DNA of 51,771 nucleotides, taken from Azoarcus sp. (GTDB lineage: Bacteria > Pseudomonadota > Gammaproteobacteria > Burkholderiales > Rhodocyclaceae). The notes beneath the pieces were generated by a model. It ran no database searches. It worked only from the letters and a program-made list of their open reading frames with translations, and was not told the origin of the DNA. This document shows positions 1,802-18,711 of this stretch, in pieces; the stretch's first letter is position 1, and every line of letters starts with the position of its first letter. Made by a program: the position numbers and the translations under genes. The DNA lies in contig JAISCE010000017.1 in assembly GCA_031265765.1 (NCBI GenBank), forward strand, positions 1 through 51,771, in the 5' to 3' direction.

Positions 1802-1804
1802 GAA

Positions 1805-2503
1805 TCAGGACTCCTTGCGCAGCACGTAAGTGCGCCACATGGCATAGCCGGGCAGGAAATCCAGGCGTCCGAGCACACGGAAACCGGCTTGGGAGAACTC
1901 CCTCTCGATGACCGGCTTGGCCACGATGAAACGGTTCTGGTTCTGCGAATCCAGTCCCCCGGCGGCGCGGCGGCATTCGAGGCGGCGCCGTTTCCAGGCC
2001 TTGACATTGCCATCGACCCACAACGAGACGATCGCCGTATCGCGGCTGATGCGATTGAATTCGCGCAGCATGGCGAGACGATGTTCGGCGGATTCGACGT
2101 GGTGCAGCAGGCGGATGCAGAAGACGCAATCCACCGCGTTGGCGTCCAGATCGATGGCGAACGCCGAGGTCCGAAAAGCGTCGACCCGCGCCACGACTTC
2201 GATTGGCTGTGCGGCACGGGCCGTGGCGATCATGTCCCTGGAATTGTCCGCCGCGAGGATGATTCGATCCGGCTTTTCGCAGAGCATGGGCCAGAAACGC
2301 CCCGCGCCGCAGGGTAGGTCCAGGACTGCAAGAGGCTCGCCGGCAAGTTGCAGGGCGCGGCGCGCCAATTGTTCCTCGCGCCAGTGCGACAGTCGCCGCA
2401 CGAGACCATCCTGGTGTTTGCGCAGGTATTGCTGCGCATGCGTCCAGTCATATTTGCGGGAAAAGTCGAGTTCGACGGGATTGTGGCTGCACATGGCGGA
2501 CAT
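1805..2503 (-). CDS. Class I SAM-dependent methyltransferase
   Basis: A 232-residue soluble protein with a Rossmann-type methyltransferase core: motif I is VLDLPCGAGRFWPML (about residues 60-75), followed by an acidic residue in AADNSRDM, then VDCVFCIRLLHHV and an IVSLWVDGN strand, all usual for small-molecule or glycan methyltransferases. It is first in a four-gene minus-strand operon with an LPS kinase, a propeller protein and an LTA-synthase-like transferase, so methylation of an envelope glycan or lipid is a reasonable inference; the acceptor is unknown. The divergent dadA gene starts 129 bases away, leaving room for both promoters. A second ATG at codon 4 is an alternative start. Confidence 0.8.
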   Translation of the reverse strand: MSAMCSHNPVELDFSRKYDWTHAQQYLRKHQDGLVRRLSHWREEQLARRALQLAGEPLAVLDLPCGAGRFWPMLCEKPDRIILAADNSRDMIATARAAQPIEVVARVDAFRTSAFAIDLDANAVDCVFCIRLLHHVESAEHRLAMLREFNRISRDTAIVSLWVDGNVKAWKRRRLECRRAAGGLDSQNQNRFIVAKPVIEREFSQAGFRVLGRLDFLPGYAMWRTYVLRKES

Positions 2504-2632
2504 CCGGTAATGAATACGTCCGCCATTGTGGAAAAGCGGGAATCATGGATTTGTCAAAAGAACGTGAAAGTTTCGTCAATTGCCGCGCCGTATGCGACTA
2601 TCCGGTTTCCACTAAAACAAGCCAGGATTCAT

Positions 2633-3895
2633 ATGCACGCAATGGTTCTGGGCGCCGGCATTACCGGCGTCACTACCGCCTGGTATCTGCGCCGGGCCGG
2701 ATTCGACGTCAGTGTGGTCGACCGTCAAGGCGAGGCTGGGCAAGAAACCAGCTTCGCCAACGGCGGCCAGATTTCGACAAGCCATCCGGAACCGTGGGCC
2801 AATCCCTCCGTGCCGCTCACCGTCCTACGCTGGATTGGCCGCGCGGACGCGCCCCTGCGCCTGCGCCCGCGCGCCGACCTTGCGCAATGGCAGTGGGCAT
2901 TCTGTTTCCTGCGCGAATGCCTGCCCTGGCGCAGCCGGCGCAATACCGCGGCCATTGCCGCGCTTGCCGTCCATAGTCTTGCCGAGTTGTGCAGGCTGCG
3001 GGAATTTGCCGGCATCGCCGAGGCCTACGACGCGCGGGCGCGCGGCATCCTGCACCTGTTTTTCGACGCGCGGGCATTTGCGCGCGCCCGCGCCCGCACG
3101 GCGGAACTAGCCCCTTTCGGCATTGAACTGCGGCCCTGTACCGCCGCGCAATGTGTCGACGTCGAACCGGCGCTTGCCACGCTTGTGCCCCGGTTGGCGG
3201 GCGGTCTTTACGCGCCCGGCGACGAATCGGGCGATGCGATGCGCTTCAGCCGGGCGCTGGCCGGCGTCCTCGCCGATGACGGCGTGCGTTTCCATTACGG
3301 CTCGGAGATCGAACGTCTGGATGTCGCCGACGAGCGCATCACCGGCATCGAGGTTCGCCATCCCAGCGGCGAGCGGGACGTGCGGAGAGCGGATGTCTAC
3401 GTTGTTTGCCTGGGCAGCCACGGTCGCGGGCTGTTGCGTCCGCTCGGCGAGAGTCTGCCGGTCTTTCCGCTCAAGGGATATTCGATCACCGCGCCAGTGG
3501 CCGATGTCGCGCGCGCGCCGCAAGTCAGCCTCACCGACGAATCGCGCCGCATCGTGTGCTCGCGGCTAGGCGGACGCCTGCGCGTCGCGGGCACCGCCGA
3601 ATTGAACGGCTACGACACGGGCATCGACCCCGCGCGCATCGCCGCCATGCGGGAATGGGCCGAAACCCGCTTGCCCGGCGCTATCGACCCGGAGCGCATC
3701 ACCCCCTGGGCGGGCCTGCGTCCGGCGACGCCGGGCGGCCTGCCCGTCATCGGGCGTCTGCACCACGTCAATCTCTGGTGCAATACCGGCCACGGCCCCC
3801 TGGGGTGGACGCTCGCTTGCGGCTCGGCCTCGGCGCTCGCGGCGCTGATGCGCGGGGAAGAAGCGACGATCGACTTTCCATTCCGGCGTGGCTGA
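2633..3895 (+). CDS. dadA: D-amino acid dehydrogenase small subunit (FAD-dependent)
   Basis: A 420-residue FAD-dependent oxidoreductase that converts D-amino acids to 2-oxo acids and passes electrons to the respiratory chain at the inner membrane. The N-terminus MVLGAGITGVTTAWYL gives the GxGxxG dinucleotide-binding fold, followed by ETSFANGGQIS and a C-terminal WAGLRPATPGGLPVIG and NTGHGPLGWTLACGS, all hallmarks of DadA. Length fits (about 415-435). The start at 2633 has CAGGA upstream; the open frame extends further upstream but without family homology, and an ATG three codons on is an alternative start. No alanine racemase (dadX) is beside it, so it may act in general D-amino-acid turnover. 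Confidence 0.9.
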   Translation: MHAMVLGAGITGVTTAWYLRRAGFDVSVVDRQGEAGQETSFANGGQISTSHPEPWANPSVPLTVLRWIGRADAPLRLRPRADLAQWQWAFCFLRECLPWRSRRNTAAIAALAVHSLAELCRLREFAGIAEAYDARARGILHLFFDARAFARARARTAELAPFGIELRPCTAAQCVDVEPALATLVPRLAGGLYAPGDESGDAMRFSRALAGVLADDGVRFHYGSEIERLDVADERITGIEVRHPSGERDVRRADVYVVCLGSHGRGLLRPLGESLPVFPLKGYSITAPVADVARAPQVSLTDESRRIVCSRLGGRLRVAGTAELNGYDTGIDPARIAAMREWAETRLPGAIDPERITPWAGLRPATPGGLPVIGRLHHVNLWCNTGHGPLGWTLACGSASALAALMRGEEATIDFPFRRG

Positions 3896-3991: not shown

Positions 3992-5539
3992 TCACCCAAG
4001 ACTTTCTACCGCGAATCCCGTCACGTTGCGTTCCTTTTTGCTGAATTCCACCCCGACCAAGTGGATGGGCTGGCGGAGCGAACGGTATTTGTCGGCGTAT
4101 TTTTTCTCCTTGATCTGCGCCAATGCCTTTCCTTCGGCTTTATCTTCCACTACCTTGAATTCAAAAAGATAAACTTGTCCGTTGAATTTGACGGCCATAT
4201 CCAGCTTTCCCCGATTGTTCACGTCTTCCGGGACAATGTCCAGTCCCAGGGCGGCAAAGATGGCATAGAAAACGCTGGCGTAATAGCCCTCGAACCGGTC
4301 GATATTGTTCTTGCGAAACCAGTCGTTGGGAATGCTGGCGTAGAGAGAAAAAAAGATTTCCCGGATGCGCTCGAAATCATTGGCTTCCAGCGCCTTGTAA
4401 AGGGCAAATCTGCTTTGTACCGCCTGCTGCGGATTCTCGACCCAGCGCCCCAGGATATTGCCTGTCAACGCGCCCCGGACTTCACGATTGGGGTAGGTCA
4501 ACGTAAACATGATGTCGTCGCCCAGGTTTTCTTCGCTGGCAATGGTCAGATAGCCGGATTGGAACATCAGGGCTTCAGTGGAAATATCGCCCACTTCAAA
4601 AGCGGAGATCAGTTCGGAAGAACTTTGCATTTCCAGGAATGCAGGCAAATAGACCTTGCGCTCTGTAAGCATATCGACCAGGAAGGTTGGCGTGCCGGTC
4701 TCGAACCAGAAGGAACGGAATTCGCGCTTTTGAAACAACAGCAATAAATCGAATGGGTTATACACCGCCTCGCCGCGCCAGTTGTAGCCGTTGTACCAGT
4801 GACGGATTTTTTCCCGATCCAGCCCTTCCAGTTCCGGCGCGAACACGGTATCGACGTCGGCATCGGTGTAGCCGCAGATATTGGAATATTCTGCATCCAG
4901 CGTGATATCCGAAAGATTGTTGAGACCGGAGAAGATATTGACCTTGCTGAACTTGGACACCCCGGTAAGCATGGCGAACTTGATGTGCGCGTCCTGCCCC
5001 TTGATGACCGAATAGAGATTGCGCAGCCCGTCGCGCATCTCAAGGGCCAGGCCGGGTGAGGTCAGATTATCCAGAATCGGTTTATCGTATTCGTCGACGA
5101 GAATGACGGCACGCTGGCCGAATTTGGCTGCCGCCGCCTGGATCAAGGCAATGAAGCGGTCGGGAATGTCTCCTTCATCTTTTGCAATGCCCAGGAGACG
5201 CTCGTTTTCCGCCAGAATGCGGTGAATCCGTGCATCCAGATTCGCCCGGCTTTCCATGATGCCTTCCGCAAAGCTGATGCGAATCACCGGATATTTGACG
5301 TTCCAATCCCATTTGTTGTGGCAATGCAACCCCCGGAACAAGGCCTCGTTGCCCGCGAGGAGTTCCGCCAAGGTGTCCAGAAAGAGGCTTTTTCCGAAGC
5401 GGCGCGGGCGGGAGAGGAAGTAGGCCGTCCCTTCTTCGATCATGCGCAGGGCGAAGGCGGTCTTGTCGACATAGTAATAATTGTCTTCGCGGATCTTGGC
5501 AAATGTCTGAATGCCAATGGGAAGTTTTTTGCGGTTCAT
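3992..5539 (-). CDS. AAA-ATPase-like / PD-(D/E)XK nuclease-superfamily protein
   Basis: A 515-residue protein of the widespread two-domain family (AAA-ATPase-like PF09820 plus PDDEXK_9 PF08011). The N-terminus LPIGIQTFAKIRE and YYYVDKT leads into a Walker A-like RPRRFGKS (residues 44-51) and Walker B VILVDEYDKPI (145-155). The C-terminal part has GKLDMAVKF with YLFEFKVVED, a D...ExK nuclease-type pattern. The function of the family is not settled; multicopy members and accessory locations are common, and defence or mobile-element roles have been suggested. The gene is visibly richer in A+T than its neighbours, stands alone between dadA and the dnpA-like gene, and may be horizontally acquired. 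All named motifs are present, so it appears intact. Confidence 0.85.
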   Translation of the reverse strand: MNRKKLPIGIQTFAKIREDNYYYVDKTAFALRMIEEGTAYFLSRPRRFGKSLFLDTLAELLAGNEALFRGLHCHNKWDWNVKYPVIRISFAEGIMESRANLDARIHRILAENERLLGIAKDEGDIPDRFIALIQAAAAKFGQRAVILVDEYDKPILDNLTSPGLALEMRDGLRNLYSVIKGQDAHIKFAMLTGVSKFSKVNIFSGLNNLSDITLDAEYSNICGYTDADVDTVFAPELEGLDREKIRHWYNGYNWRGEAVYNPFDLLLLFQKREFRSFWFETGTPTFLVDMLTERKVYLPAFLEMQSSSELISAFEVGDISTEALMFQSGYLTIASEENLGDDIMFTLTYPNREVRGALTGNILGRWVENPQQAVQSRFALYKALEANDFERIREIFFSLYASIPNDWFRKNNIDRFEGYYASVFYAIFAALGLDIVPEDVNNRGKLDMAVKFNGQVYLFEFKVVEDKAEGKALAQIKEKKYADKYRSLRQPIHLVGVEFSKKERNVTGFAVESLG

Positions 5540-5627
5540 GGCGTGCGCTTGCGGGATGAATCATATTGGAATTATATCGCAGGAAGAAACTCCTGCCCGG
5601 CTCCGTGGCGTACAGGTTGCCCGGTCG

Positions 5628-5816
5628 TCATGAATGTTCCGGGGAGGCTTGAGCGTTTCCGCCGGTGACGCCGAAGCCCGCCTCGCCGCCTGCCGCTATC
5701 TGGGCGAAGTTGTCCGGGGTCGTGGCGGCGTTATCGGCTGAAACGGCTTCTGCGCCTGCGGCTATTGCTTGAACCGTTCCGTCGTTGTTGACGTTGACGG
5801 TGTTGCCGGTCGGCGG
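5628..5816 (-). pseudogene. Possible C-terminal remnant of a repeat-rich surface protein
   Basis: The 292 bases between the AAA-ATPase gene and the deacetylase gene contain a 62-codon open minus-strand frame with no start codon, bounded upstream by two in-frame TAG codons and ending in TGA. The translation (TGNTVNVNNDGTVQA, then AAGAEAVSADNAA and AQIAAGGEAGFGVTGG) is rich in N, G, A, T and V, like beta-helical or hemagglutinin-type secreted proteins and unlike random shadow frames in this GC-rich DNA. I read it as the decayed tail of a lost gene, but it could be chance; no family is recognised. Confidence 0.3.
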
Positions 5817-5831
5817 CTATGCCTGCGGTTT

Positions 5832-7319
5832 CTAGCGCGTTGCATTTTTACGGTTTACCGTTTCCACCCAGAAAAGCTCGTGCCGCCGCACGGCTTTTCT
5901 GAAGTATTCGTTTTCGCCGTAGGGCGGATGCCGGCGTCCCGCAAGCACTTGTTGCAGAGCGCGGCGCAGGCGTTTCTTGAGCGGAAGCGGCGGGGCGAGA
6001 TCGTGGACCATCGCCAGCGCCATCGCCTTGTCGATCTGGCGGGAAGGGGCCAGCGGCAGCGACCAGGGCAGCAGCGATCCGGCTTCCGCAAAGAGCGGCG
6101 GCAGGGCGGCGCCGGTGTGCGCTTCGCCCATCGGCCAGCGATCATTGTCGTGCAGATGATTGGCGTAGTGGAGCAGTACCTCTGGTTGCCATGCCGAATC
6201 CGCCAGGGCTTCCCGCACGGCCTCGCCGGCGGCCACGTGATCGGGGTGCGGGTCGAACGACGGGTGCGGCAGGACGATGGCTTCGGGCCGGGCGGCCAGG
6301 ATGATCTCGCGCAGATCGGCCAGCAAATTATTCCAGGAAGGAATGCCATCGCGGTCGCTGCCGAGGCGGATGCGGTTGCATGCGCGGAAGAAGCGCGTGT
6401 CGCGCAGATCGGCTTCGCGCGAGGGCACGGCTGCGGCGGGCGCTTCGCGCATGACGGGGAGTTGCAGACAAAAATATCCCAATTGGATGGATCGTTCGGC
6501 GGGAACGCCTGCCCATGCGGGCACGGCGATGCTGTCCCAGGCGCGCAAACGTCCCTTGAGCCGCGCCGCTTCGACGGCGGACAGTCCCATTCGCTGGTAG
6601 TGTCCGGCTTCGATTTCGCCCGCCGTCAAGGTGACGATCCAGACTTCCTTCGCTTGGCTGTAGAGGCCGAAAGCGGCGAGTTCGGCGTCGTCGGCGTGGG
6701 GCGCGACGACGAGCAGGCGCTTTTGCCGGTAGTCGGGATGCGCCGCGCGCCACAGCCGCGGCGCGCCTTCCAGCCGGCAATGCCGGGTGCTCAGGCGCAG
6801 GCCGTCGGTTTCCAGGACTTCCGCCAGGCCGGTGAGATTGAGATAGCGCACGCCCCTTGCGCCTCGCTCGAAGGTCTGGCAATCCCTTTTTGGGCGGGGC
6901 TGGGCGCTTGCTTCTCCGCCGACGGCGTTTTCCGGGGCGCGGCGCTCGTCTGCCTCGACGATCACGGCTGGATCGAGAAAGCGCCCCGTCCATCCGGCGC
7001 GCAGGCCCACGGCCAGGATCAGTGTGTCATCCGCACCGAGTGCCGCGCCGGCGGCGAGCGTCAGGCGGTCATCGGAAAAATCGATCCGCAGCGCCTCGGC
7101 CCGTTCGTCGAAACGGTAGGTGTAATCCGCTTCGGGCGCATAGAACAGGTGATCGGAAAACCAGGCTTCGTGCGCGATCCAGGCCAGGACGAGAAGCGGC
7201 GGAACCCAGCCGGCGCCCGCGAAGACGCCTGTCCCGCAGAGCGCCAGCGCGAACAGGGCGAGCGCCACGCGCTTTTTGCGCCGGTGACGTTGCAGAAGGA
7301 GGGTTTTGCGCGAAATCAT
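5832..7319 (-). CDS. PIG-L-family de-N-acetylase (DnpA-like)
   Basis: A 495-residue protein with two N-terminal membrane segments (about residues 18-36 and 37-55) and a C-terminal PIG-L/LmbE deacetylase domain. Zinc-site motifs are APHADDAE (206-213, the usual AHPDDE variant) and PHPDH (357-361). It is followed 5'-ward by mig-14, the same order as the dnpA-mig-14 pair (PA5002-PA5003) in the LPS-core gene cluster of Pseudomonas aeruginosa, where DnpA has been linked to antibiotic tolerance. By family knowledge it removes an N-acetyl group from an amino sugar, probably of an envelope glycan; the substrate is unproven. It starts 19 bases after mig-14 ends and is likely co-transcribed with it. 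Confidence 0.85.
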   Translation of the reverse strand: MISRKTLLLQRHRRKKRVALALFALALCGTGVFAGAGWVPPLLVLAWIAHEAWFSDHLFYAPEADYTYRFDERAEALRIDFSDDRLTLAAGAALGADDTLILAVGLRAGWTGRFLDPAVIVEADERRAPENAVGGEASAQPRPKRDCQTFERGARGVRYLNLTGLAEVLETDGLRLSTRHCRLEGAPRLWRAAHPDYRQKRLLVVAPHADDAELAAFGLYSQAKEVWIVTLTAGEIEAGHYQRMGLSAVEAARLKGRLRAWDSIAVPAWAGVPAERSIQLGYFCLQLPVMREAPAAAVPSREADLRDTRFFRACNRIRLGSDRDGIPSWNNLLADLREIILAARPEAIVLPHPSFDPHPDHVAAGEAVREALADSAWQPEVLLHYANHLHDNDRWPMGEAHTGAALPPLFAEAGSLLPWSLPLAPSRQIDKAMALAMVHDLAPPLPLKKRLRRALQQVLAGRRHPPYGENEYFRKAVRRHELFWVETVNRKNATR

Positions 7320-7338: not shown

Positions 7339-8238
7339 TCAGGTTTTGAACACGGGTTCGGGCAGGCACCACAGGTTCTTGTAGCCGGGTCCGGTCCGTC
7401 CGAAGGAATACCGTAGCGCCTTGCCCAGGGCCGCAGCGTCTTGTTGCGCCGCTTCGATGTTTACGGAGATCAGGACGCTGCCCGGACTGTAGTCCTGCGC
7501 TTGGGTATCTATGCCGCCATTGATGTATTCGACGCTGACCCATTGCGCGGATTCGACGCGGTACAGCACCTGCACGGCGACCGGTTCGCCGCGCAGCATG
7601 AGCACCGAGCCTCGCATCCAGTCGTGCAGCAGGGCAAACACTTCCGCCATGGTCGCCGCGCCCGGCGCGGGAAACTTCCAGCGCCGCTGGAAAAGATCGA
7701 TGTAGATTGCCGCAAGTTCGGATGGGGAAAACTCGCTCACCGGACGGATGCCGCCACCCGCCTCCATGAACAGCCGCAATTGGCGGCGCTGGTTGTAGCG
7801 GAATTTCGAGGAAAACGCTTCCACGGTCTTGAGCAGCGACAGTTTTTCCCTTTGCCGTTTCAGCCCGGCGAAATCCGCCTGGTGCCGGGCCGCGAGATAA
7901 CGCCCGGCATGGCGCAGCGGAATTCTTTCCCCGCCTGCGACGACGGGCAGGATGACTTCCGCATCGCCGAGGTCGAAAATCGCCTTCTTCCCGCGCGTCT
8001 TCAACGCCGCCTTGGACAAGGCCAGATGGCGTCCCCAAACGGGAATGGCCGCGACGAACGCATCGTCCCGCCGCCATCCCAGATAGCGCGCCGGGATGTC
8101 AGCCAGGCCGGACAGGCGCTCGACGAACGCGGGATGCGTAGCGACGCTGCCGCCGCAGCGTTGCCAGATGTCGGCGTAGTCGGCGGCGGCGATTTCCGTC
8201 CAGCCTCTTTCCCGGAAAAACCTGAAGCGATTGAGCAT
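7339..8238 (-). CDS. mig-14: Mig-14 family protein (GNAT-fold, antimicrobial-peptide resistance)
   Basis: A 299-residue protein matching Mig-14, an inner-membrane-associated protein needed for resistance to cationic antimicrobial peptides in Salmonella and Pseudomonas. Visible are the N-terminal RFFRERGWTEI, central YNQRRQLRLF and RRWKFPAPG, and a C-terminal GNAT-like half with GEPVAVQVLYRV, SVEYINGG and YSFGRTGPGYKNLW. The start at 8238 is chosen because the family begins at about this point; the open frame extends another 128 codons upstream without any homology. It lies upstream of the dnpA-like gene on the same strand and diverges from aroC across 124 bases. Confidence 0.85.
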   Translation of the reverse strand: MLNRFRFFRERGWTEIAAADYADIWQRCGGSVATHPAFVERLSGLADIPARYLGWRRDDAFVAAIPVWGRHLALSKAALKTRGKKAIFDLGDAEVILPVVAGGERIPLRHAGRYLAARHQADFAGLKRQREKLSLLKTVEAFSSKFRYNQRRQLRLFMEAGGGIRPVSEFSPSELAAIYIDLFQRRWKFPAPGAATMAEVFALLHDWMRGSVLMLRGEPVAVQVLYRVESAQWVSVEYINGGIDTQAQDYSPGSVLISVNIEAAQQDAAALGKALRYSFGRTGPGYKNLWCLPEPVFKT

Positions 8239-8362
8239 AGTGGCCGATTCTAGCGTTAACCGCGAGTCAGGCATGAGACTGTCCGCCGTATCGCGGTAAA
8301 GGCGGATTTCGCAAGGTGCTAGACTCGCTACCCGTTCCGCTTTCCCGCAAAGGCGTTTTCCC

Positions 8363-9478
8363 ATGTCCGGCAATACTTTTGGTACCTTGTTCCGCGTAAC
8401 CTCCTTTGGAGAATCCCATGGCCCGGCAATCGGTTGTGTCGTCGACGGGTGCCCGCCGGGCCTGCCGCTTGCGGCGGCGGACATCCAGGCCGCACTCGAC
8501 CGCCGCAAGCCGGGGACTTCGCGCCATGTGACGCAGCGCCGCGAACCCGATACGGTGGAAATCCTCTCCGGCGTGTTCGAGGAGCGGACGACCGGCGCGC
8601 CGGTCGCTCTCTTGATTCGCAACCGGGATCAACGTTCGCGCGACTACAACGATATTGCCGATACCTTCCGTCCCGGCCATGCCGATTACACTTGGTGGCA
8701 GAAATACGGTATCCGCGATTATCGCGGCGGCGGGCGCGCTTCGGCGCGCGAAACCGCGGTGCGGGTGGCGGCGGGCGCGATTGCGCGCAAGTGGCTGGCG
8801 GAGAGATTCGGCGTCGGAATTCGCGGCTGCGTGGCTCAGATCGGCGAGGTGGCGGTTCCGTTCGGTTCATGGGACGAAGTCGGGCGAAATCCTTTTTTTG
8901 TTTCCAATGCCGCCTTATTGCCCAGGCTCGAAACTTATCTGGATGAACTGCGCCGCGAAGGGGATTCGATCGGCGCCCGGTTGAGCATCGTTGCCAGCGG
9001 CGTGCCGGTGGGATGGGGCGAGCCTGTATTCGACCGGCTGGATGCCGACATCGCCTGCGCGATGATGGGCATCAATGCAGTCAAGGGCGTCGAGATCGGC
9101 GCGGGCTTCGCATCGGTGAGCCAGCGCGGTTCGGTGCATGGCGATGAACTGACGCGCGAGGGCTTTCTTTCCAACAATGCCGGCGGCGTGCTCGGCGGGG
9201 TGTCGTCGGGGCAGGACATCGTGGTGAGCCTGGCGGTCAAACCGGCTGCCAGCATCCGCATCGCGCGGCGTTCGATCAATCGCGCCGGTGATGCGGTGAC
9301 GGTCGGCACCGAAGGACGCCACGACCCCTGCGTGGGTATCCGCGCGGTTCCCGTGGCCGAAGCCATGCTGGCGCTGGTGTTGATCGACCATGCTTTGCGC
9401 CATCGCGCCCAATGCGGTGACGTACAAACGGCTACGCCGAAAATCGCGGGATCGGTCGATGGGCGGCGCGGCGCGTAG
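8363..9478 (+). CDS. aroC: Chorismate synthase
   Basis: A 371-residue enzyme that makes chorismate from 5-enolpyruvylshikimate 3-phosphate, the last step of the shikimate pathway; it needs reduced FMN. The N-terminus [19 protein letters not shown] with GPAIG is the family signature, followed by [46 protein letters not shown] and the C-terminal [18 protein letters not shown]. Length is normal (about 360-370). Monocistronic here, convergent with the membrane coiled-coil pair (46 bases between stops). Confidence 0.97.
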
Positions 9479-9524: not shown

Positions 9525-10691
9525 TCAGCGCGGCAGGTGGGTCAGGTTGAAAAGCGTTTCGAGTTGTTGGTGAACACGTTCCGATCTCATGGCATCGCGG
9601 AGTCTTTCCCTTACCTGGATGGTGTAGTGGCATTGCTTGCCGCTGTGCTGTGCGACGGGCCGTATTCGATCGTCGAGGTTGTTGTAGGGGATTTGGCTTC
9701 TCGATAGCAAGCGTTCGATGCCGGGTATTGCGCGCGCCTCGGCTTCGCGCTCGGGCGGCCAGGCGGGTGCGATATGCACGCCGCCGGGGCGGAGTTCGAG
9801 CATGAGCAGGAACTGGGCGTTGCCCGCTCTATCGACCCAGCAGGGCGGCGCGGTGATGGTGTTATGGGTTCCCAGGCGGGTGGGCAGGGAAGCGAGATCG
9901 ACGCCTGCGGGCTGCGAACGCGCCGGCGTCGGTACTGGCGCTGGCGCCGGTACTACTGGCGTTGGCGTTGGCGCTGGCGCCGCTGGCGGGGTGTTCCTGG
10001 CGCTCGTTTCGGGCCGCGGGGGCGCATTGTTTGTGTTTCCGCCGTCCGGCATCGGCGACAAACGTGTTTCGACCAGCCATTTCGCCCAGACGGTTTCCTG
10101 ACCGGGGGCGAGCGGCTGGCCGAGTTCCTGTTCGAGCCGCGTTTCGATCTGGCGGAGAAGTTCGAGCGCCATGAGCGCCTGCGCGGAGATTTCGTTGTCG
10201 GTGAGTTCGTTTCCGGATGCGGCGGACAGGGCGAGGGTTTTCTCTTTCAGCCGCATGCGCAGTTCGAGCGCCGAGAGCAGCGCCTCTTCGGTCGTACCGC
10301 TCAACGTGGAGGATTTGCCCGCCAGTGCCAGAACGTCCTGGACTTCGGTCAGTCCCGCCAATTGGGTGTTGAGTTCCTGGACGCGCGCTTTCAGCGCGGC
10401 GGCTTCGGCTTCCGCCGCCGTTTTGTCGAGCAGGCGCTGGATGACTTCGTCGGCGTTCACGCCCGCTGCCGCGAGTTGGGTTTGAAGTTCCCGGCGAGCC
10501 GACTCGAAGGCATCGCGCGCCAGGGGAAGCGCGTTTTCTTGTTGGCGCTTGTCCAGGCGGGCGAGGGCTTCCGTGCGCGATATATCGGCATCGGCATACA
10601 TCCAGCCGAATACGACCAGCAGAAAGAGGATGAAGATGAACGCGGTTCCGATCAGGGAAAGCCGGAAAACGCTGTCGCTGCCTCTATACAT
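9525..10691 (-). CDS. One-helix membrane protein with coiled coil, Pro-rich linker and conserved-looking C-terminal domain; partner of the giant coiled-coil protein
   Basis: A 388-residue protein I cannot name. Order of parts: short basic N-terminus; one membrane helix (about residues 11-32) with YADAD directly after it; an Ala/Glu/Gln-rich helical, probably coiled-coil region (40-190); an exceptionally Pro/Ala/Thr-rich linker (224-262); and a globular end beginning PPCWVDRAGN with a second cysteine in KQCHYTIQV (C284, C354). It lies 33 bases after the 1047-residue coiled-coil gene and is surely in the same transcript. The arrangement, multi-helix protein with a long tail followed by a single-helix protein with a soluble end, is like MotA/MotB, ExbB/ExbD and ZorA/ZorB pairs, but no OmpA peptidoglycan-binding motif is visible. 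Function is unknown; a defence-type role is inference. Confidence 0.85.
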   Translation of the reverse strand: MYRGSDSVFRLSLIGTAFIFILFLLVVFGWMYADADISRTEALARLDKRQQENALPLARDAFESARRELQTQLAAAGVNADEVIQRLLDKTAAEAEAAALKARVQELNTQLAGLTEVQDVLALAGKSSTLSGTTEEALLSALELRMRLKEKTLALSAASGNELTDNEISAQALMALELLRQIETRLEQELGQPLAPGQETVWAKWLVETRLSPMPDGGNTNNAPPRPETSARNTPPAAPAPTPTPVVPAPAPVPTPARSQPAGVDLASLPTRLGTHNTITAPPCWVDRAGNAQFLLMLELRPGGVHIAPAWPPEREAEARAIPGIERLLSRSQIPYNNLDDRIRPVAQHSGKQCHYTIQVRERLRDAMRSERVHQQLETLFNLTHLPR

Positions 10692-10724
10692 GAATCGCCC
10701 GCGTCAAAAGAAGCCGCCCGTCTG

Positions 10725-13700
10725 TCATTTTCCGTTCGCCTGGGAATCGAAATACTGCCGCATCGTTTGCAGCGCCTGTCTGATGAGGGCAAGTTCCTTG
10801 GTCGATACCATCATGTTGGCCTGTTGCTTGTGGCTGTTTTCCGTTTGTTCGGCGAGCAGCTGTGTCTGGGCATGCATCGCGGCGGCGACTTCCGATTGCT
10901 GTTTGCGGCTGGCTTCGACGATCTGCGTCAGGGCGCGGCCCTGGGTCATGAGGGCGATGGAAACGTCGGACTGTTGCTTTTGGGCGGATTCGGCGGTCTT
11001 GGCCTGGGCGGTGGCCAGGGCCGTGATCTCGGCGTATTGCTTCTGGCTGGTTTCGACGTGTTGCGTCAGCGCCCGGCTCTGGGACATCAGCGCGCCCGAG
11101 ATTTCGGTTTGTTGCTTGCGGTTGCTTTCGACTTGCCGGGCAAGGGATTCGCTCTGGGCAAGGAGCGCGGCGGATATTTCGGTATAGCGTTCCTTGCCGG
11201 TTTTCGCCTGGGCGACCAGTTCGGCGTATTGGTTTTTGCTGTTTTCGATTTGCCGGGCCAAGGCTTGCCCCTGGGCGACGATGGCGGAGGAGGCTTCGGC
11301 TTGCTGCCGCTGGCTGTTTTCGATGTATTGCGCCAGCGTCTGTGTTTGGGAGAGCGCCGCCGCCGAGGTTTCGGCCTGTTGCTGCTGGCTGGCCGCGGTT
11401 TGCCGGGCAAGGGCTTCGCTCTGCGCGGCAACTGTGCCGGATATGTTATCGTAATTCTTGCGGATGTCTTCGATGAATTGCCTGAGCGCCTGGGTTTGCG
11501 TTGTGACCGTGGTGGAGACATCGGCGTATTGTTTGTAACCGTTTTCGACGTGCTGGATCAGAGCTTCGGATTGCGCGACGGCGGCGGCGGAGGCTTCGAT
11601 GTGTTGCCGTTTGCTGGCTTCGACGAATTGCGTGAGTGTTTCATACTGTTTCTGGCTGGCGTCGATCTGCTGCGCCAATGCCTGCCCCTGTGCGGCGACC
11701 GTGGCCGACAGTTCGGCATTTTGCGCGCGGCTCGTGTCGACGTGCCTGCCAAGCGCCTCGCTCTGTGCCACGATTGCCGCCGAGGCTTCGAGTTGCTGTG
11801 TATGGCTGCTTTCGATGTAGCGGGCCAATGCCTGGGTCTGCGTGGCGATCGTGGCGGATAGTTCGGTCTGTTGTTTGTTTTGGGCGAGAATCGTGCCGGA
11901 GAGTTCGCCGTTCCGCGTCTGGTCCGCCTCGATCTGTCGGGAAATCGCTTCACCCTGTGCCACGACCGCCGCCGAGGCTTCGAGTTGCTGCTTCTGGCTG
12001 ATTTCGACATAGCGGGCCAGCGCCTGGGTCTGTGCGATGGCGGCGGACGACATTTCGGCGTACTGCTTTTGGCTGGCCTCGACATGCTGGCTCAAGACTT
12101 GTGTTTGGGTGTGCAGGGCATCCGCGGTCTGGGCCTGCTGTTCGACTTCCTGGGTCAGCAGCCTGCCTTGGACGGCAATCGCGGTCAGAGCCTCATCCTG
12201 CCGCTTCTGGCTGCTTTCGACGTACTGGTTCAGCGATTCGCCCTGCGCCACGACGGCGGACGACACCTCGGCATAGTATTGATGATTGTCCTCGATGTGT
12301 CGGGCCAGCAATCCGGTCTGCGCGGCGAATGCGGACGAAGCTTCCGCCTGCTGCCGCTGGCTGTTTTCAATGTAGCCGGTCAGCGCCTCGATCTGGGCAT
12401 TTGCCGATTCCGACATTTCGCGCTGCTGTTCCCGGGTCGTTTCGACCTGCTGGCTCAAGGCTTCGGTTTGCGCGGCGACCGCGGAAGACAGCCGGGTTTG
12501 TTCCCGGATATTTTCGGCCAGTGCTTCGCTTTGGGCGAGCACCAGGGAGGATGTTTCGGCATGCTGTTTGCGGCTGGCCTCGATCTGTTCGGTCAGCGCC
12601 TGGCCCTGGGTGGCGACCTGGCCCGAGGTTTCGTCTTGCCGCTTCCGGTTTTCGTCGATGTAGCGGGTCAGCGTTTGGCCCTGTATCTTGATCGCGCCCG
12701 CCATCTCGGTATATTGCTTGCGGCTGGCTTCGATGTGCGCGGCCAGCGCCTGATTCTGCATCTTGATCGCACTCGACATTTCGGTCTGCTGCTGCCGGCT
12801 GGTTTCCACGTATTTGCCCAATGCCGTGTTCTGGGACAGAACCGCGGTCGACACTTGGCCGATGTCTTCGCGGGTGGCGTGCAGGGCTTCCTGGGTGGCG
12901 AGCAGGGTTTTCGCCAGTGCTTCCATGCCGCCCGCCTGATCCCGGGCGTTGGCGAGAATCTGTTCTTGCGCTTTGGCCAGTTCGATGACGTGGCCCAGGG
13001 CGTCTCCGATATCGTCGGAGCGTTCGCGCACCTGGAGCAGCGCGGGACCGAGGATTTTGAGCGATTCGGTTACGCCGTCGGACAGCGCGATGATATCGCG
13101 CGTCATCTTCCCGATATTGCCGCCCAGTTCGCCCATCGGCGTCTGGAGCATGGTGGTGAAATAATCGTCGGGGAATACGATGCCTTGCAGGCGTTTTTCG
13201 ACCGCGCCCGCATAGCCATCCACGGATACGGTCAGGCGTTTGCTGGCCGCCCCGATGTCGCCCATGACTCTGGCGAATATCTCCCTGTTCGATTGCACGA
13301 GTCCGCTGAAGAACCCGGAAAGTTCCTCGGTGTGGCTTTCGGTCAGGTGTTCGACGCTGCCGGAGACGCGAGCGACGGCGTCCCGTGCGGCTTCGGCGAC
13401 GCAGACGTCGAATTCCTGCATTTTTTCCAGCGTGGCGTTCAACTGCTGGTACAAGGTGCGCGCGGCGCTGATGGCGCTTTCTTCGGCATCGTCCAGCGCC
13501 TGTACGAGATTCGGTTTGAAACCGACGAAATAAAGCCTGGCGCCGACCCCGAACGCGATGCAGGCCAGCGCCGAGCCGAGCCTCTGCGCAATAGCGGGCA
13601 GCTTCAGGGATATCTGCTGCATGTCGAACAGGCAGGCGATGGCCACGAGAATCATGGCGATGAAGCCGAGGTAATAACACGAGTCGCCGAAATTTTCGTC

Positions 13701-13868
13701 CGAAACCTCGCGCCCCCGGATGTGCGTCGCCGCGCCCAGATATATCGACATCACCGCGAGAGGGGGAATCAGATATCCCCAGGGGCCGGGGATGAGCGTG
13801 CCGCCAAGGGCCGCGGCGGGAATCTCAAGCAAGGCTGAGACGACGAAAAGAATATGGATCTTTTTCAT
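10725..13868 (-). CDS. Giant membrane protein with four N-terminal helices and about 25 tandem coiled-coil repeats
   Basis: A 1047-residue protein. Residues 1-115 hold about four membrane helices (4-24, 32-50, 64-82, 95-113) with the stretch GDSCYYLGFIAMI in the third and FGVGARLYFVG in the fourth. Residues 116-348 are helical (AEESAISAARTLYQQL, then LTESHTEELSGFF). Residues 349-1003 are an unbroken chain of 25-residue repeats: position 2 Leu, 6 Ile/Val, 7 Glu, 9 Ser, 12-13 Gln, 15 Glu, 17 Ser, 20 hydrophobic, 23 Gln. The C-terminus is ALIRQALQTMRQYF. At 0.15 nm per residue the repeat rod would be about 100 nm. It heads a two-gene operon with the one-helix protein. The design resembles ZorA-type motor subunits with long cytoplasmic tails; this is an analogy, not proven homology. 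No annotated family is recognised with certainty. Confidence 0.9.
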   Translation of the reverse strand: MKKIHILFVVSALLEIPAAALGGTLIPGPWGYLIPPLAVMSIYLGAATHIRGREVSDENFGDSCYYLGFIAMILVAIACLFDMQQISLKLPAIAQRLGSALACIAFGVGARLYFVGFKPNLVQALDDAEESAISAARTLYQQLNATLEKMQEFDVCVAEAARDAVARVSGSVEHLTESHTEELSGFFSGLVQSNREIFARVMGDIGAASKRLTVSVDGYAGAVEKRLQGIVFPDDYFTTMLQTPMGELGGNIGKMTRDIIALSDGVTESLKILGPALLQVRERSDDIGDALGHVIELAKAQEQILANARDQAGGMEALAKTLLATQEALHATREDIGQVSTAVLSQNTALGKYVETSRQQQTEMSSAIKMQNQALAAHIEASRKQYTEMAGAIKIQGQTLTRYIDENRKRQDETSGQVATQGQALTEQIEASRKQHAETSSLVLAQSEALAENIREQTRLSSAVAAQTEALSQQVETTREQQREMSESANAQIEALTGYIENSQRQQAEASSAFAAQTGLLARHIEDNHQYYAEVSSAVVAQGESLNQYVESSQKRQDEALTAIAVQGRLLTQEVEQQAQTADALHTQTQVLSQHVEASQKQYAEMSSAAIAQTQALARYVEISQKQQLEASAAVVAQGEAISRQIEADQTRNGELSGTILAQNKQQTELSATIATQTQALARYIESSHTQQLEASAAIVAQSEALGRHVDTSRAQNAELSATVAAQGQALAQQIDASQKQYETLTQFVEASKRQHIEASAAAVAQSEALIQHVENGYKQYADVSTTVTTQTQALRQFIEDIRKNYDNISGTVAAQSEALARQTAASQQQQAETSAAALSQTQTLAQYIENSQRQQAEASSAIVAQGQALARQIENSKNQYAELVAQAKTGKERYTEISAALLAQSESLARQVESNRKQQTEISGALMSQSRALTQHVETSQKQYAEITALATAQAKTAESAQKQQSDVSIALMTQGRALTQIVEASRKQQSEVAAAMHAQTQLLAEQTENSHKQQANMMVSTKELALIRQALQTMRQYFDSQANGK
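10788..12824 (-). repeat. Degenerate 75-bp tandem repeats encoding a 25-residue coiled-coil unit
   Basis: Inside the giant coiled-coil gene the DNA is a continuous array of 75-bp coding repeats. Reading the protein in units that start at the Ala-Leu pair gives mostly 25-residue units, with a few of 21 or 14 residues (for example after residues 448, 569 and 665). The unit lengths fit 7+7+11, three heptads and two heptads, so each variant keeps the coiled-coil register. The units are diverged from each other, so the array is old or under selection for composition rather than freshly amplified. Confidence 0.85.
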
Positions 13869-13998: not shown

Positions 13999-14406
13999 CT
14001 ACGTTACCGGGAAGGGCAGCGTAAGTTGCTCACTTTCCGGGAGCCTCGACCAGTCAAGCACATTGAGTATGCTGGTCTTGATCGGTCGTTTTTCGTCCCA
14101 AAAGATCAGAGAAGACAGCAAGCCCATAGCTTCCTCGCTTTCGAGACTGGCAAGGGTTTGGCGCGCTTTTTGCTCCGTATCGAAGGAAAGGTAATAAACC
14201 GTGTCATCGAACATGACAGGCCGCCCATCTATCGGCGCGACGAGGCGGAATCTCAGTTTCTTGTACAGGCCGCAGATTGCGATGCGCCACGGTTTGAAAG
14301 CATAGTCTCCAACGCCAAAGATAGAGAAACGAGGGTTCTTGGCGTAGATGGTGCTGGCGCGCGCATCCAGTTGCGAGGCGTGGGCTTCAAGGTAAGTCCA
14401 CGTCAT
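13999..14406 (-). pseudogene. C-terminal fragment of a restriction-modification DNA methyltransferase
   Basis: A 135-codon open frame whose translation (YLEAHASQLDARAS, PRFSIFGVGDYAFKPWRIA, GRPVMFDDTVYYLSF, SLIFWDEKRPIKTSIL) matches my memory of the C-terminal, target-recognition end of N6-adenine DNA methyltransferases of type II/IIG-like systems. The catalytic NPPF/NPPY motif and SAM-binding core are absent, so it cannot methylate DNA. The similarity seems to continue a few codons upstream of the ATG (PVKAIAP), up to about 14427, showing that the ATG is not an original start. It overlaps the endonuclease fragment by four bases. Together they look like the two outer ends of an R-M locus joined by an internal deletion. 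Confidence 0.65.
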
Positions 14407-14645
14407 GGGAGCAATCGCCTTGACAGGCCCTCATATCCAGGGAAGTCAATGCCATTTGCAGAATTGCCCTGCTCGAATTCGTAGCGTCCTTGCAGGTATG
14501 TCCTGAACTTGTGTTCAAGATAGGTGCCGATGGCCTTGCCATCCGTTACGCCGAACAGTTTGGGTTCTGTGTGCGTGCTTTCCATGTCGGAAAACGCCTG
14601 TGCTTCCTTACACAATAGATCAATCGTGAGTGTGATTCTTGTCAT
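14403..14645 (-). pseudogene. N-terminal fragment of a type II restriction endonuclease
   Basis: An 80-codon open frame beginning MTRITLTIDLLCKEA and containing GKAIGTYLEHKFRTYL, YEFEQGNSANGIDFPG, which I recognise as the N-terminal part of a restriction endonuclease family in which GIDFPG contains the first acidic catalytic residue and is normally followed by the D-x-K part of the active site. Here homology stops after FPG and the frame ends ten codons later, so the nuclease is cut off in its active site. The downstream sequence changes to the methyltransferase tail in another frame. It lies 57 bases from the 3' end of tRNA-Ile, a usual integration point for accessory DNA. Confidence 0.6.
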
Positions 14646-14702
14646 TGTTTTGGTGCTGACAACAGATTGTGGGGCGTGTTCGTGATGTACCCGCACCCCG
14701 TT

Positions 14703-14779
14703 TGGTGGGCCCAGCAGGACTTGAACCTGCAACCAACGGATTATGAGTCCGCTGCTCTGACCAATTGAGCTATAGGCCC
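14703..14779 (-). tRNA. ileX: tRNA-Ile(CAU), lysidine-modified type
   Basis: A 77-nt cloverleaf on the minus strand: acceptor stem GGGCCTA paired with TGGGCCC, discriminator A and encoded CCA, D-arm with AGCTCAATTGGTCAGAGC, anticodon stem GCGGA/TCCGT with loop CTCATAA, and T-arm GCAGGTTCAAGTCCTGC. The CAT anticodon could mean Met or Ile2; the acceptor and anticodon-arm sequence and the position directly after rpoD, as for ileX in E. coli, favour tRNA-Ile read at AUA after lysidine modification by TilS. Downstream lies the restriction-modification remnant. Confidence 0.93.
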
Positions 14780-14797
14780 CGAAGAACAGGATGCGCC

Positions 14798-16861
14798 TCA
14801 GGCATCGCTGTCGAGAAAACTGCGCAGCTTTTCGGAACGGCTGGGGTGGCGCAGCTTGCGCAGCGCCTTGGCTTCGATCTGGCGGATGCGCTCGCGGGTG
14901 ACATCGAATTGCTTGCCGACTTCTTCCAGGGTGTGGTCGGTGTTCATCTCGATGCCGAAGCGCATGCGGAGTACCTTGGCTTCGCGCGGGGTGAGCGAGT
15001 CGAGCACCTCTGCGGTGGCGTCGCGCAGACCTGCGTAAGTGGCGGCGTCGGCAGGCGCCAGCGTCGCGGTATCTTCGATGAAATCGCCGAGATGGGAATC
15101 GTCGTCGTCGCCGATCGGTGTTTCCATGGAGATCGGTTCCTTGGAAATCTTCATGATCTTGCGAATTTTTTCTTCGGGCATTTCCATCCGTTCGGCCAGG
15201 GTGGCCGGGTCCGGTTCCTGTCCGGTTTCCTGGAGGATTTGCCGGCTGATGCGATTCATTTTATTGATGGTCTCGATCATGTGCACCGGAATGCGGATGG
15301 TGCGCGCCTGATCCGCGATCGAGCGGGTGATGGCTTGCCGGATCCACCATGTGGCATAGGTGGAAAATTTGTAGCCGCGCCGGTATTCAAACTTGTCGAC
15401 CGCTTTCATCAGGCCGATGTTGCCTTCCTGGATGAGATCGAGGAATTGCAGGCCGCGATTGGTATATTTCTTGGCGATGGAGATGACCAGCCGCAGGTTG
15501 GCCTCGGTCATTTCGCGCTTGGCGCGGCGCATTTTGGCTTCGCCCGTGGACATCTGGCGGTTGATGTCCTTGAGTTCCTTGAGCGGAATGCCGATTTTCT
15601 CTTGCAACTCGATCAGTTTTTGCTGTTCCTCGAAAATGGCGGGGTGGGCGCGTCCAAGGGCGCTGGCATAAGGCTTGCCCAGGGCGATTTCGCCCGGCAG
15701 CCATTCGAGGTCGGTTTCGTGCCCAGGGAAGGACTTGATGAAGTGCGGGCGCGGCATGCCGACGCGCTCGACGCACAGGCTCAGGATCTGGCGTTCGTGG
15801 CTGCGCACTTTGTCGACCATTTGGCGCACGGAGTCGCACAGGCGCTCGATGGTCTTGGCTGTGAAGCGAATGCCAAGCAGTTCGTCGGAGATGGCGCGCT
15901 GGTACTTGAGATAGATTTTGTTCTGCGATCCGCTCTTGCCGAGCGTTTTCATCATCTTTTTGTAATGGTTGCGAATGATCTCGAACCGGGCGAGCGCGTC
16001 GGCCTTGAGTTGCGCCAGCGAGGCGGCGCTGGCGGCGGCTTCGCCGTCTTCGTCGCTTTCGCTGTTTTCTTCGCTCTCGCTGTTTTCACCGTTGTCGCCG
16101 CCTTCGCTTCCGCCGTCCTTGGCATTGGCGTTGCCTTCGGCGTCGATGGCGGTTTTTTCGGTTTTTTCGGCTTCGGCTTCTTCTTCGGGCGCTTCTTGTG
16201 CGACGACATCGAGATCGATCACCGCATCGACGATTTCATCGGCCCGCGTCTCGTCACGGGTGACCCTGTCGGCGATTTCCAGCATTTCGGCAATGGTGGT
16301 CGGGCAAGCGGAAATGGCCTGCACCATATGCTTCAGACCTTCTTCGATACGCTTGGCAATCTCGATTTCGCCTTCGCGGGTGAGAAGCTCGACCGTACCC
16401 ATTTCTCGCATATACATGCGCACCGGGTCGGTGGTGCGCCCGAACTCGGCGTCGACCGTGGACAGGGCCTGCTCGGCTTCTTCCTCGGCGACATCTTCGT
16501 CGACCGGATTGGCGACGCTGTCGGTCATGAGCAGGTCTTCCGTCGCGGGGGCGACATCGTAGACCTGGATGCCCAGACTGTTGAAGGTGGTGATGATGTC
16601 TTCGATCTGCTCGGCGTCGGCAACGTCGTCCGGCAGATGGTCGCTGATTTCGGCGTAGGTCAGGTAGCCGCGCTCCTTGCCGAGCGTAATCAGGGTCTTG
16701 AGCTGGGTTCGACGGACTTCGGCGTCGACCTGTGTCAGCGCGGAACTCTGGAGAGCCAATGCGACCCTGTATTTTTCCCTGGCCTCCTTGGACCTGGATC
16801 TGCGCCCCTTGGAAGCGCCTGTTTTGCGGGGATCTTTATCCTTGGCTTTTTCGCGTGCCAT
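14798..16861 (-). CDS. rpoD: RNA polymerase primary sigma factor sigma-70
   Basis: A 687-residue housekeeping sigma factor. Region 1.1 is near residues 45-100 ([21 protein letters not shown]), region 1.2 has [21 protein letters not shown], a long acidic non-conserved region (about 215-275) is rich in E, S and N, region 2 has [20 protein letters not shown] and [15 protein letters not shown], and region 4.2 ends with [18 protein letters not shown]. Length is close to the betaproteobacterial norm with a slightly long acidic insert. GAGGAG lies 5 bases before the ATG. It is the third gene of the rpsU-dnaG-rpoD operon, with a 101-base gap after dnaG. Confidence 0.98.
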
Positions 16862-16883
16862 GGCACTCCTCGAGTGGTTCGGG

Positions 16884-16907
16884 AGAATCTGTGAAACAGA
16901 AGATTCT
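16884..16907 (-). other. AU-rich hairpin in the dnaG-rpoD spacer
   Basis: The spacer between dnaG and rpoD contains a perfect 7-bp inverted repeat (AGAATCT / AGATTCT) with a 10-nt loop, 23 bases before the rpoD start. In E. coli the dnaG-rpoD junction of this operon is an RNA-processing site; a similar role here is only an inference from position and low stability. There is no U-tract, so it is not an intrinsic terminator. Confidence 0.35.
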
Positions 16908-16962
16908 ACTATGAATCGGATGGTCTTGTAAAAGTAGCAAGCGTGCTCTTTTCGCGCAACAG

Positions 16963-18711
16963 CTACTTCAAGCGGCGCCGTTCCTGTATCACCTCGGCCA
17001 GGCGACGCTGTTCAGCGAGCGAGAGTGTGTTTGCGCGCGCCTGGAGTTCGTCATATTCCTTGTTGATGGCATCGGCGCTGAGTTTGCGCAGGCTGTCTTC
17101 GAACAGGGTCTCGATCACGGCGGGGTCGAATTCGGTGTCGATGAGTCCCGCGCCGGCCTGGGCCAGCGTATCGCCGTGGGGGGTGTCCCGAAAGCGTTCG
17201 ATCAGGGCGCCCAGTCCGGTGGCCGGTTCGCCAAGCTCGACCAGATCGACGATGGCGATCAGGGCGCGTCCTTCGGCGGTATCGTCCGGGATCAGGCCGA
17301 GCGGGAGCCTTGCGGCGAGAGCGGGGTGTTGGAGGACGAGCCGCAACAGGGTCGATGCCACCGTAGGCGGCGGTTTTCGCACGGGAATGCGATGCGCGGC
17401 GGGATGGACGGCGGCGCGCGTCCGCTCGCCCGCGGGCGCGATGCCGAAGGCGCGTTCGACTTCGGCCTGGGTGAGATGGCTCATGCCGGCGATGGCCTTG
17501 AGCAGTTGCAGGCGCAGGATCGAAGCCGCCGCCGGGATGCGGGCAATGAGCGGCCTGGCTTCGTGCACCAGGCGGGCGCGGCCTTCCGCGTCGGCGGTAT
17601 CGCAATCTTGCCTGAGGCTGTCGAGCAGGAAACGCGCCAGCGGTGTGGCGTGTGCGGCGGCTTCGTGCATGGCCGCGGCGCCCTTTTCCCGGATGAAGGT
17701 GTCGGGGTCGTGCTCGGGCGGCAGGAACAGAAAGGACAAGGTGATATCGTCGCGCAGGGTTTCGAGCGCATTTTCGAGCGCCCGCCATGCGGCGCGCTGT
17801 CCGGCCGCGTCGCCGTCGAAGCAGAAAACGATGCGGTCGGTCTGGCGGAGGAGTGTCTGGATGTGATGCGGCGTGGTCGCTGTGCCGAGTGTTGCCACCG
17901 CGTTTTCCACGCCGAACTGGGCGAGCGCGGCGACATCCATGTAGCCTTCGACCACAATGGCGAAACCGGCTTCGCGGATCGCTTTTTGTGCAAGGAAGAA
18001 GCCGTAGAGTTCGCGCCCTTTTTCAAACAGCGGCGTCTCGGGCGAGTTCAGGTACTTGGGTTCGCCGCTGTTGAGCACCCGCCCGCCGAAGGCGATGATG
18101 CGCCCGCGCCGGTCGTGGATCGGAAACATGATGCGATGGCGGAAGCGATCGTAGCGCCGTCCCTGTTCGCTGTCGATGACCATGCCGGCGGTGGCCAGCA
18201 ATTTGTTCTGGTAATCTGGGAAGATTCGTTGCAGGGGAGAGCCGTCCGGGGCGAAGCCGATGCCGAAGCGCGCGGCGATTTCGCCGGAAAGCCCGCGCCG
18301 CTGGAGATAGGCGGTTGCTTCGGGCGATTGCCCCAGTGCTTCCCGGTAGAATTTCGCCGCCGTGGCCGTGATTTCGATCAGGCGCTCGTAATTGTCGTTT
18401 TGTGGCAGGGGCGTGCGTCCGTCATTGGGAACCTGCATGCCCGTGTCGCGCGCCAGTTCGTGCACCGCTTCGGAAAAGGACAGACCGCTGTAGGCCATGA
18501 GAAAACCGATTGCGGTACCATGCGCGCCGCAGCCGAAGCAGTGATAGAACTGCTTGGAAGGGCTGACGGAGAACGAAGCCGATTTCTCGCCATGAAAAGG
18601 GCAGCGCGCGAAGTAGTTCGCGCCGCTTTTCTTGAGCGGCAAATAGCGTTCGATGACATCGACAATGTCGACGCGGGCAAGCAAACCCTGGATGAAAGAT
18701 TGAGGAATCAT
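16963..18711 (-). CDS. dnaG: DNA primase
   Basis: A 582-residue primase that makes RNA primers for DNA replication. The N-terminal CHC2 zinc ribbon has C37, H40, C58 and C61 (CPFH ... CFGC). The TOPRIM core shows [16 protein letters not shown] and [16 protein letters not shown], and the C-terminal helicase-binding domain ends in [18 protein letters not shown]. The start at 18711 (MIPQSFIQ) is fixed by family alignment; a longer open frame upstream is not coding. Shine-Dalgarno bases are absent, as the T-run of a terminator lies immediately before the ATG, so translation is expected to be weak, as known for E. coli dnaG. Confidence 0.97.

Follow-up and report, generated by a model that had tools for sequence, protein, structure and literature searches.

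The 51,771-nucleotide stretch of Azoarcus sp. DNA analysed here, hereafter the window, is one contig (C49; GenBank JAISCE010000017.1) of a 2.58-Mb assembly in 98 contigs and carries two adjacent genes, here named A and B, whose products look by their sequences like kin of the MotA/TolQ/ExbB-TolR motors. In most lineages of the window's genus, A has a giant coiled-coil tail and B has lost the acidic membrane residue found in its short-tail relatives. We see about an even chance that this long-tail pair is a motor relative turned into a structural or mechanical element that is passive and conducts no ions, anchored in the envelope and equipped with a cytoplasmic rod. The evidence consists of the homology of the A-B family, the pairing of the two genes, the disappearance of the acid and of residues of the pore, the amplification of the tail, the absence of two companion genes (X and Y) carried by short-tail relatives, purifying selection and a single origin of the long-tail form. 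The pair is laid out in the window as follows.

10725..13868, minus strand: gene A, 1047 amino acids (aa), MotA/TolQ-like, four membrane segments followed by a giant coiled-coil tail
9525..10691, minus strand: gene B, 388 aa, single-pass partner of A
10692..10724, minus strand: gap between A and B, 33 bases
13539..13859, minus strand: membrane bundle of A, residues 4-110, with M72 at the helix-3 pore Thr and C103-I104 at the helix-4 Ser-Thr
10779..12878, minus strand: coiled-coil repeats of A, residues 331-1030, in 25-residue units
10605..10661, minus strand: membrane helix of B, residues 11-29, with Gly15 at the site of Glu/Asp in short-tail relatives
9906..10052, minus strand: Pro-rich linker of B, residues 214-262, recognised by eye
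9528..9848, minus strand: PPCW domain of B, residues 282-388, with Cys284 and Cys354

Hydrophobic segments were located by the Kyte-Doolittle method with 19-residue windows and a cut of 1.3. Four are present in window A (residues 4-22, 32-50, 63-81 and 90-108) and a single one in window B (residues 11-29). Together with the open reading frames (ORFs), they bear out the layout given in a preliminary description of this DNA, in which the 1047-aa protein has about four membrane segments and the 388-aa protein, encoded 33 bases further on, has one. Residues 331-1047 of A are built of 25-residue repeats, the identity at lag 25 being 0.309 versus 0.097 ± 0.011 in shuffled sequences, and the tail has a hydrophobic period of 3.56 residues, close to 25/7. 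Because of this repeat and this period, the long coiled coil noticed in that description can be accepted as real. At the DNA level a repeat of period 75 is seen only at 12655-12806 of the A gene. Lag 25 is likewise strongest in six other long-tail A proteins (0.138-0.376, lowest in L059 and L051; L numbers denote loci and G numbers genomes). In six short-tail A proteins the lag-25 identity lies 0.4 to 3.2 standard deviations (SD) above shuffles, and the three tested for it have a hydrophobic period of 3.51-3.53. The highest of the six, at 3.2 SD, is that of L016 (10455-11969, minus strand), a hint from sequence that the 25-residue unit may predate the long tail. The 15 complete long-tail A proteins measure 1043-1342 aa after start trimming, versus 341-632 aa for the short-tail ones read. 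A PDB profile search with full-length A returned coiled-coil and helical-bundle proteins among the matches listed (60 of 133).

The only two cysteines of window B, 284 and 354, both lie within its C-terminal PPCW domain, in agreement with the cysteine-bearing end and Pro-rich linker described earlier, and likely form a periplasmic disulfide. No OmpA match was found in window B, where the PPCW domain takes that place, and the PDB profile search with B gave seven weak helical matches. Across the relatives the end domain of B is either OmpA-type (by annotation in the rhizobial and Paracoccus loci, by model in L020) or PPCW with two conserved cysteines.

Kinship of A with the motor proteins is seen most directly in four orthologues that pass the 22.9-bit cut-off of the Pfam MotA_ExbB model (PF01618), namely L050 (24.1), L052 (24.1), L053 (28.2) and L059 (26.0). 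These come from a rescan of 10 of the 15 long-tail N-termini, of which three more fell under the cut-off and three gave no match at E 0.01. At E up to 0.1 the model matches 7/14 short-tail and 7/15 long-tail N-termini, and the short-tail L016 N-terminus scores 22.8 bits. The short-tail and long-tail N-termini are homologous to each other (hhalign 99.95%, E 5e-38). In three profile-profile alignments (28, 6 and 18%) the helix-4 Thr of short-tail A aligns on the TolQ Thr; since direct profile-profile scores are weak, the placement in the superfamily rests on Pfam and on motif residues. The window genome has six further PF01618 genes over the cut-off, some of which read by eye as TolQ, ExbB and flagellar MotA. 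A and B are adjacent in all 16 genus loci where both genes are readable, window included; among the 16 further genus loci B stands beside A in 15, and L060 ends at a contig border. The MotA/TolQ/ExbB-like division of labour proposed at first is upheld by this adjacency together with the four Pfam matches.

In the parts of the cited papers drawn upon here and below, the membrane helix of MotB, TolR and ZorB is described as carrying a conserved Asp that handles ions (PMC9389320, PMC11890865), the ZorB acid is reported to be crucial for Zorya defence (PMC11890865), and the 5:2 motors with a described mechanism need an acidic membrane residue (PMC9389320, PMC11890865, PMC8986121). At the corresponding site of the B helix, 13 of the 14 aligned short-tail proteins have Glu and one has Asp. 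The 14 aligned short-tail pairs leave out L017, whose A was not found, and L092-L098; in the eight B proteins of these loci, read by eye, the residue is also Glu, so that all 22 short-tail B proteins read carry Glu or Asp. In contrast, Gly occupies this position in 15/15 long-tail B proteins, window included, which speaks against the ion-driven action first suggested for the window locus. The pore-lining residues of A are affected as well. The helix-3 Thr is present in 14/14 short-tail versus 10/16 long-tail proteins and the helix-4 Thr in 13/14 (the other has Ser) versus 5/16, and window A has lost both. Asp62, Tyr65, Tyr66, Gly68 and Arg111 are kept in 16/16 long-tail A proteins. A relocated acid in the style of GldL was considered and rejected, as helices 3 and 4 of the 16 aligned long-tail A proteins contain no conserved substitute acid.

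The long-tail form is a feature of one clade. In the A tree, from which L084 and L089 were omitted as too divergent, the 16 long-tail proteins group together with a support of 100/100. In the RpoD tree, G390 branches outside the remaining 17 genus genomes (100/98; whole genus 99/97), of which 15 have the long-tail form and two (G376 and G380) yielded no A. G390, the deepest branch of the genus, has a short-tail A, Glu in B, and both X and Y, each of which was found in this genome alone among the 21 of the genus; no X or Y lies upstream of A in the window. The other 16 of the genus's 17 A-B lineages share the long tail, Gly in place of the acid (in all 15 B proteins aligned), an eroded set of pore Thr and the lack of X and Y. 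The long-tail form has a single origin, later than the separation from the G390 lineage. The loss of the acid, the growth of the tail and the loss of X and Y all map to the same stem branch, so the trees give them neither an order nor a causal tie. The ancestor was probably a four-gene X-Y-A-B system that retained the acid; alternatively, G390 may have gained X-Y-A-B independently.

The A-B pair is core in the genus of the window, where a match to the A N-terminus occurs in 17/21 genomes and in 12/12 of those whose completeness is at least 90% and whose contamination does not exceed 5%. The four genomes lacking a match are 66-87% complete or 9% contaminated. In one subclade (L009, L050, L053, L054, L057 and L060) A is directly preceded by a gene that reads by eye as argJ and, before that, by one that reads as secA, and in L052 argJ (by eye) sits at the contig start. 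Outside the genus A was found in 5/374 other genomes of the family and 2/368 other genomes of the class, and a query with B or its end domain matched 3/100 genomes of the family (one of them the same-genus G054), 2/273 of the class and 1/397 of the phylum. A weak match was also noted in G035 (E 7.9e-5, stretch L010).

Long-tail A and B are mostly under purifying selection. In the three closest comparisons (window, L046 and L047) the ratio of nonsynonymous to synonymous substitution rates (dN/dS) is 0.03-0.42 in every segment and 0.03-0.14 in the transmembrane parts of A and B, and in four other comparisons every value beyond two for the B helix, given below, is 0.07-0.36. L046 and L047 match L007 and L006 in size and gene places, and L006 and L007 did not enter the counts. 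The possibility that A and B are pseudogenes was rejected, as the frames are open and conserved and dN/dS is low.

The short-tail relatives reveal a four-gene module. The order X-Y-A was seen in 17 fetched loci, with B next by BLAST in 14 and placed by annotation or position in L021, L089 and L095. Searched apart, X and Y hit an identical set of 24 plasmid records out of 72,556; a query with L016 A also hit 24 with equal genus counts, and 20 among the matches listed coincide with those of X and Y. The B proteins of the window, L008 and L016 found no match in the plasmid records. Among viral contigs (IMG/VR) the A profile found the single locus L092 (7492-12107), in X-Y-A-B order; its contig is filed as viral under the database's own label. 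X has four membrane segments and Y a single one in all six loci inspected, and neither protein matches a Pfam or NCBIfam model over its cut-off or a PADLOC model better than E 7e-4. A thermonuclease gene (SNase, PF00565) lies within 0.8 kb of the module in 10/15 X-Y-A-B records against 0.215 expected, with a nominal P of 1e-19 that is overstated because the related rhizobial plasmid records are not independent. The test covered 15 of the 16 X-Y-A-B records searched, G390 being omitted with its SNase on another contig; approximate values were used for the ends of some operons and for the length of one genome, and in L086 an SNase overlaps the X frame, which had been extended mechanically. Six of eight module-adjacent SNases start with a hydrophobic, signal-like segment. 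Counting against a nuclease link, no SNase was found near the G349 or G390 loci, in four plasmid records, or beside the A-B loci of G008, G901 and G1093. The A-B loci L008, L087 and L088 have neither X nor Y in the fetched stretch and no adjacent SNase.

These short-tail relatives sit on plasmids, in islands or mobile elements, or beside defence genes. The G493 locus adjoins a TerY-P triad, the G974 locus a PDC-S37/Hhe-like gene and the G901 A-B pair a type III restriction gene; such neighbours were picked by hand for their defence-like look and yield no rate. In L085 a TerY-P triad (14241-17547; STK_OB, PP2C and TerY models, E 1e-76 to 1e-188) lies downstream of X-Y-A-B and SNase, and the G349 locus stands among genes read by eye as transposase, resolvase and umuDC. 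Near the Paracoccus X-Y-A-B locus L095 a VgrG gene of a type VI secretion system is annotated at 4474-6561. We propose, more weakly than our reading of the long-tail pair, that the short-tail system may be an envelope DNA barrier combining an energised motor with a secreted nuclease.

For the long-tail pair we infer a 5:2 assembly, an absence of conduction and a scaffold function. By analogy with the 5:2 motors, five A subunits would encircle the helix of a B dimer in the inner membrane. The coiled coil and Pro-rich linker of B would reach to the disulfide-bearing periplasmic domain, which would anchor B in the envelope, and the bundled A tails would form a cytoplasmic rod some 105-120 nm long, provided that their 717-785 residues, at 0.15 nm each, run on without a break. 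Instead of rotating, such an assembly without ion flow might serve as a strut, tether or spacer between the envelope and cytoplasmic contents, or it might transmit envelope strain along the rod. It would have been derived once from an X-Y-A-B ancestor with the acid, after the G390 split. A bolder version, which we regard as possible but rather doubtful, holds that a mobile X-Y-A-B system with a secreted nuclease, its ion-driven motor aiding the periplasmic destruction of incoming DNA, was captured by one genus and stripped of its acid, pore residues, X, Y and nuclease. What remained would be a conserved, envelope-fixed intracellular rod of more than 100 nm, that is, a 5:2 motor domesticated as a cytoskeletal strut.

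Several observations weigh against the passive, motor-derived reading. Window A itself has no Pfam MotA_ExbB match, its N-terminus no PDB profile match at E up to 10, and profile-profile comparison gave probabilities of only 28, 14 and 18% with the TolQ/ExbB-type proteins of the window genome and 6% when two MotA-type proteins were added. AlphaFold models made from three close sequences were unusable, with mean predicted local distance difference test (pLDDT) values of 38.7 and 44.1. The pore of the long-tail proteins is eroded rather than erased, as the Thr counts above indicate. The B helix gave dN/dS values of 2.09 (L052/L053) and 0.67 (L055/L056), over 45 codons each. The RpoD tree is a single-gene tree covering 15/16 long-tail lineages (G374 is missing) and lacking G384 and G391, and acid loss, tail growth and X-Y loss are linked by a correlation with n = 1. 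The weak profile-profile scores, the lack of PF01618 and PDB matches for the window protein and the unusable models would also suit a membrane-anchored pair of coiled-coil proteins that shares no ancestry with MotA/TolQ and resembles it by convergence. We find this distinctly unlikely in view of the four orthologues over the Pfam cut-off, the acid at the expected site of all 22 short-tail B proteins read and the OmpA-type B of relatives (L020, others by annotation), which resembles MotB and ZorB.

It also seems improbable that the pair is still ion-driven, through Ser/Thr, backbone carbonyls or an acid outside helices 3 and 4. The strong conservation of the membrane helices, the helix-3 Thr kept by 10 of the 16 proteins, and the GldLM precedent of an acid in the A subunit (PMC8986121) fit such a drive, as do the acids found elsewhere in long-tail A, Glu15 of helix 1 in 4/16 and one at the end of helix 2 in 7/16. 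However, Glu15 varies even inside the clade, the window protein lacks both pore Thr and helices 3-4 have no conserved acid. Little likelihood is likewise given to a ZorAB-like defence sensor working without current, in which phage damage to the envelope would shift B and the A tail would signal to an unlinked effector. The ZorAB-like layout, the hand-picked defence-type neighbours and frequent thermonuclease genes of the short-tail kin, and the truncated methyltransferase beside the pair agree with it. Against it stand the core status of the pair, its fixed housekeeping place in one subclade, the absence of X and Y, the lack of any SNase found in G000 and the loss of the acid that is crucial in ZorB (PMC11890865). 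The defensive role first suggested for the pair is not supported for the window locus, a conserved non-defence context having been named in advance as evidence against it and being present in part in the core status and the argJ/secA place; for the family the idea survives, with its short-tail members on plasmids and mobile elements and near defence and thermonuclease genes.

The neighbours mentioned at the outset as a dead restriction locus and a tRNA gene were both recovered.

13999-14406, minus strand: truncated type II methyltransferase, adjoining tRNA-Met
14703-14779, minus strand: tRNA-Met

The first of these aligns solely to the last 121 positions (355-475) of a type II methyltransferase model 475 positions long (E 6.1e-59, PADLOC) and is a cut-down restriction-modification remnant; the neighbouring 109-aa ORF (14403-14732) has no Pfam match. 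The gene 3' of B reads by eye as aroC in the window and in L007. Elsewhere in the window a 515-aa protein (3992-5539, minus strand) matches AAA-ATPase_like (PF09820) and PDDEXK_9, and a PIG-L-type deacetylase lies next to a Mig-14 family protein (5832-7319 and 7339-8622, minus strand). Among relatives that carry a name, the closest are two 'Azoarcus sp.' contigs assembled from metagenomes, L006 and L007, with an identical A-B order. Upstream of the pair in L006 an 822-aa ORF (1067-3535, minus strand) is full of GGxGxD-type repeats and appears RTX-like by eye.

The long-tail lineage represents a natural separation of 'motor' from 'structure', in which A and B stay under selection while the acid was lost, the pore eroded and the tail grown, and it lets the role of a ring and rod without ion flow be asked. 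The comparison with its relatives further reveals the X-Y-A-B module, often accompanied by a thermonuclease gene, with X and Y matching no Pfam or NCBIfam model over its cut-off. In the literature covered, mostly non-subscription, on Zorya and MotAB-like systems with a thermonuclease or with loss of the motor acid, neither the pair nor the module could be recognised. The relevant parts of PMC12505986 distinguish a flagellar from a 'generic ion transporter' group of such motors, describe A-subunit extensions of various kinds, and mention no acid-less lineage.

The short-tail relatives resemble TolQR, ExbBD and MotAB in the Thr/Ser of A helices 3-4 and the acid of the B helix, and four long-tail orthologues share the MotA_ExbB match; the window pair differs in lacking the acid and the pore Thr, and in its giant tail and other periplasmic domain. 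GldL/GldM is comparable as a 5:2 motor whose essential acid lies outside the B-type subunit (PMC8986121) and in which a long tail of the A-type subunit projects into the cytoplasm (PMC9389320), but Glu49 in helix 2 of GldL is strictly conserved (PMC8986121), whereas long-tail A has no conserved acid in its pore helices. With Zorya the pair shares a single-pass partner and a MotA-like subunit whose long coiled-coil tail lies in the cytoplasm, and short-tail A proteins match ZorA models weakly, mainly in the coiled coil (PADLOC 7.3e-6; NCBIfam 1.1e-5 and 2.3e-5). A plain Zorya system was rejected, given PADLOC values of 0.068 for ZorA1 and 0.024 for ZorB1 and a B protein without OmpA domain or acid; no ZorC, ZorD or ZorE was found among the six window proteins scanned with PADLOC. 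The earlier statement that B is not a plain ZorB therefore stands, with no ZorA or ZorB model near its cut-off and no OmpA match. The relatives' ZorA scores are 22.9-24.5 bits against NCBIfam cut-offs of 190-250. In contrast to Zorya, the long-tail lineage is core rather than accessory and its B has a PPCW domain instead of OmpA and a helix free of the acid, and the relatives of the window pair carry X, Y and often a thermonuclease gene.

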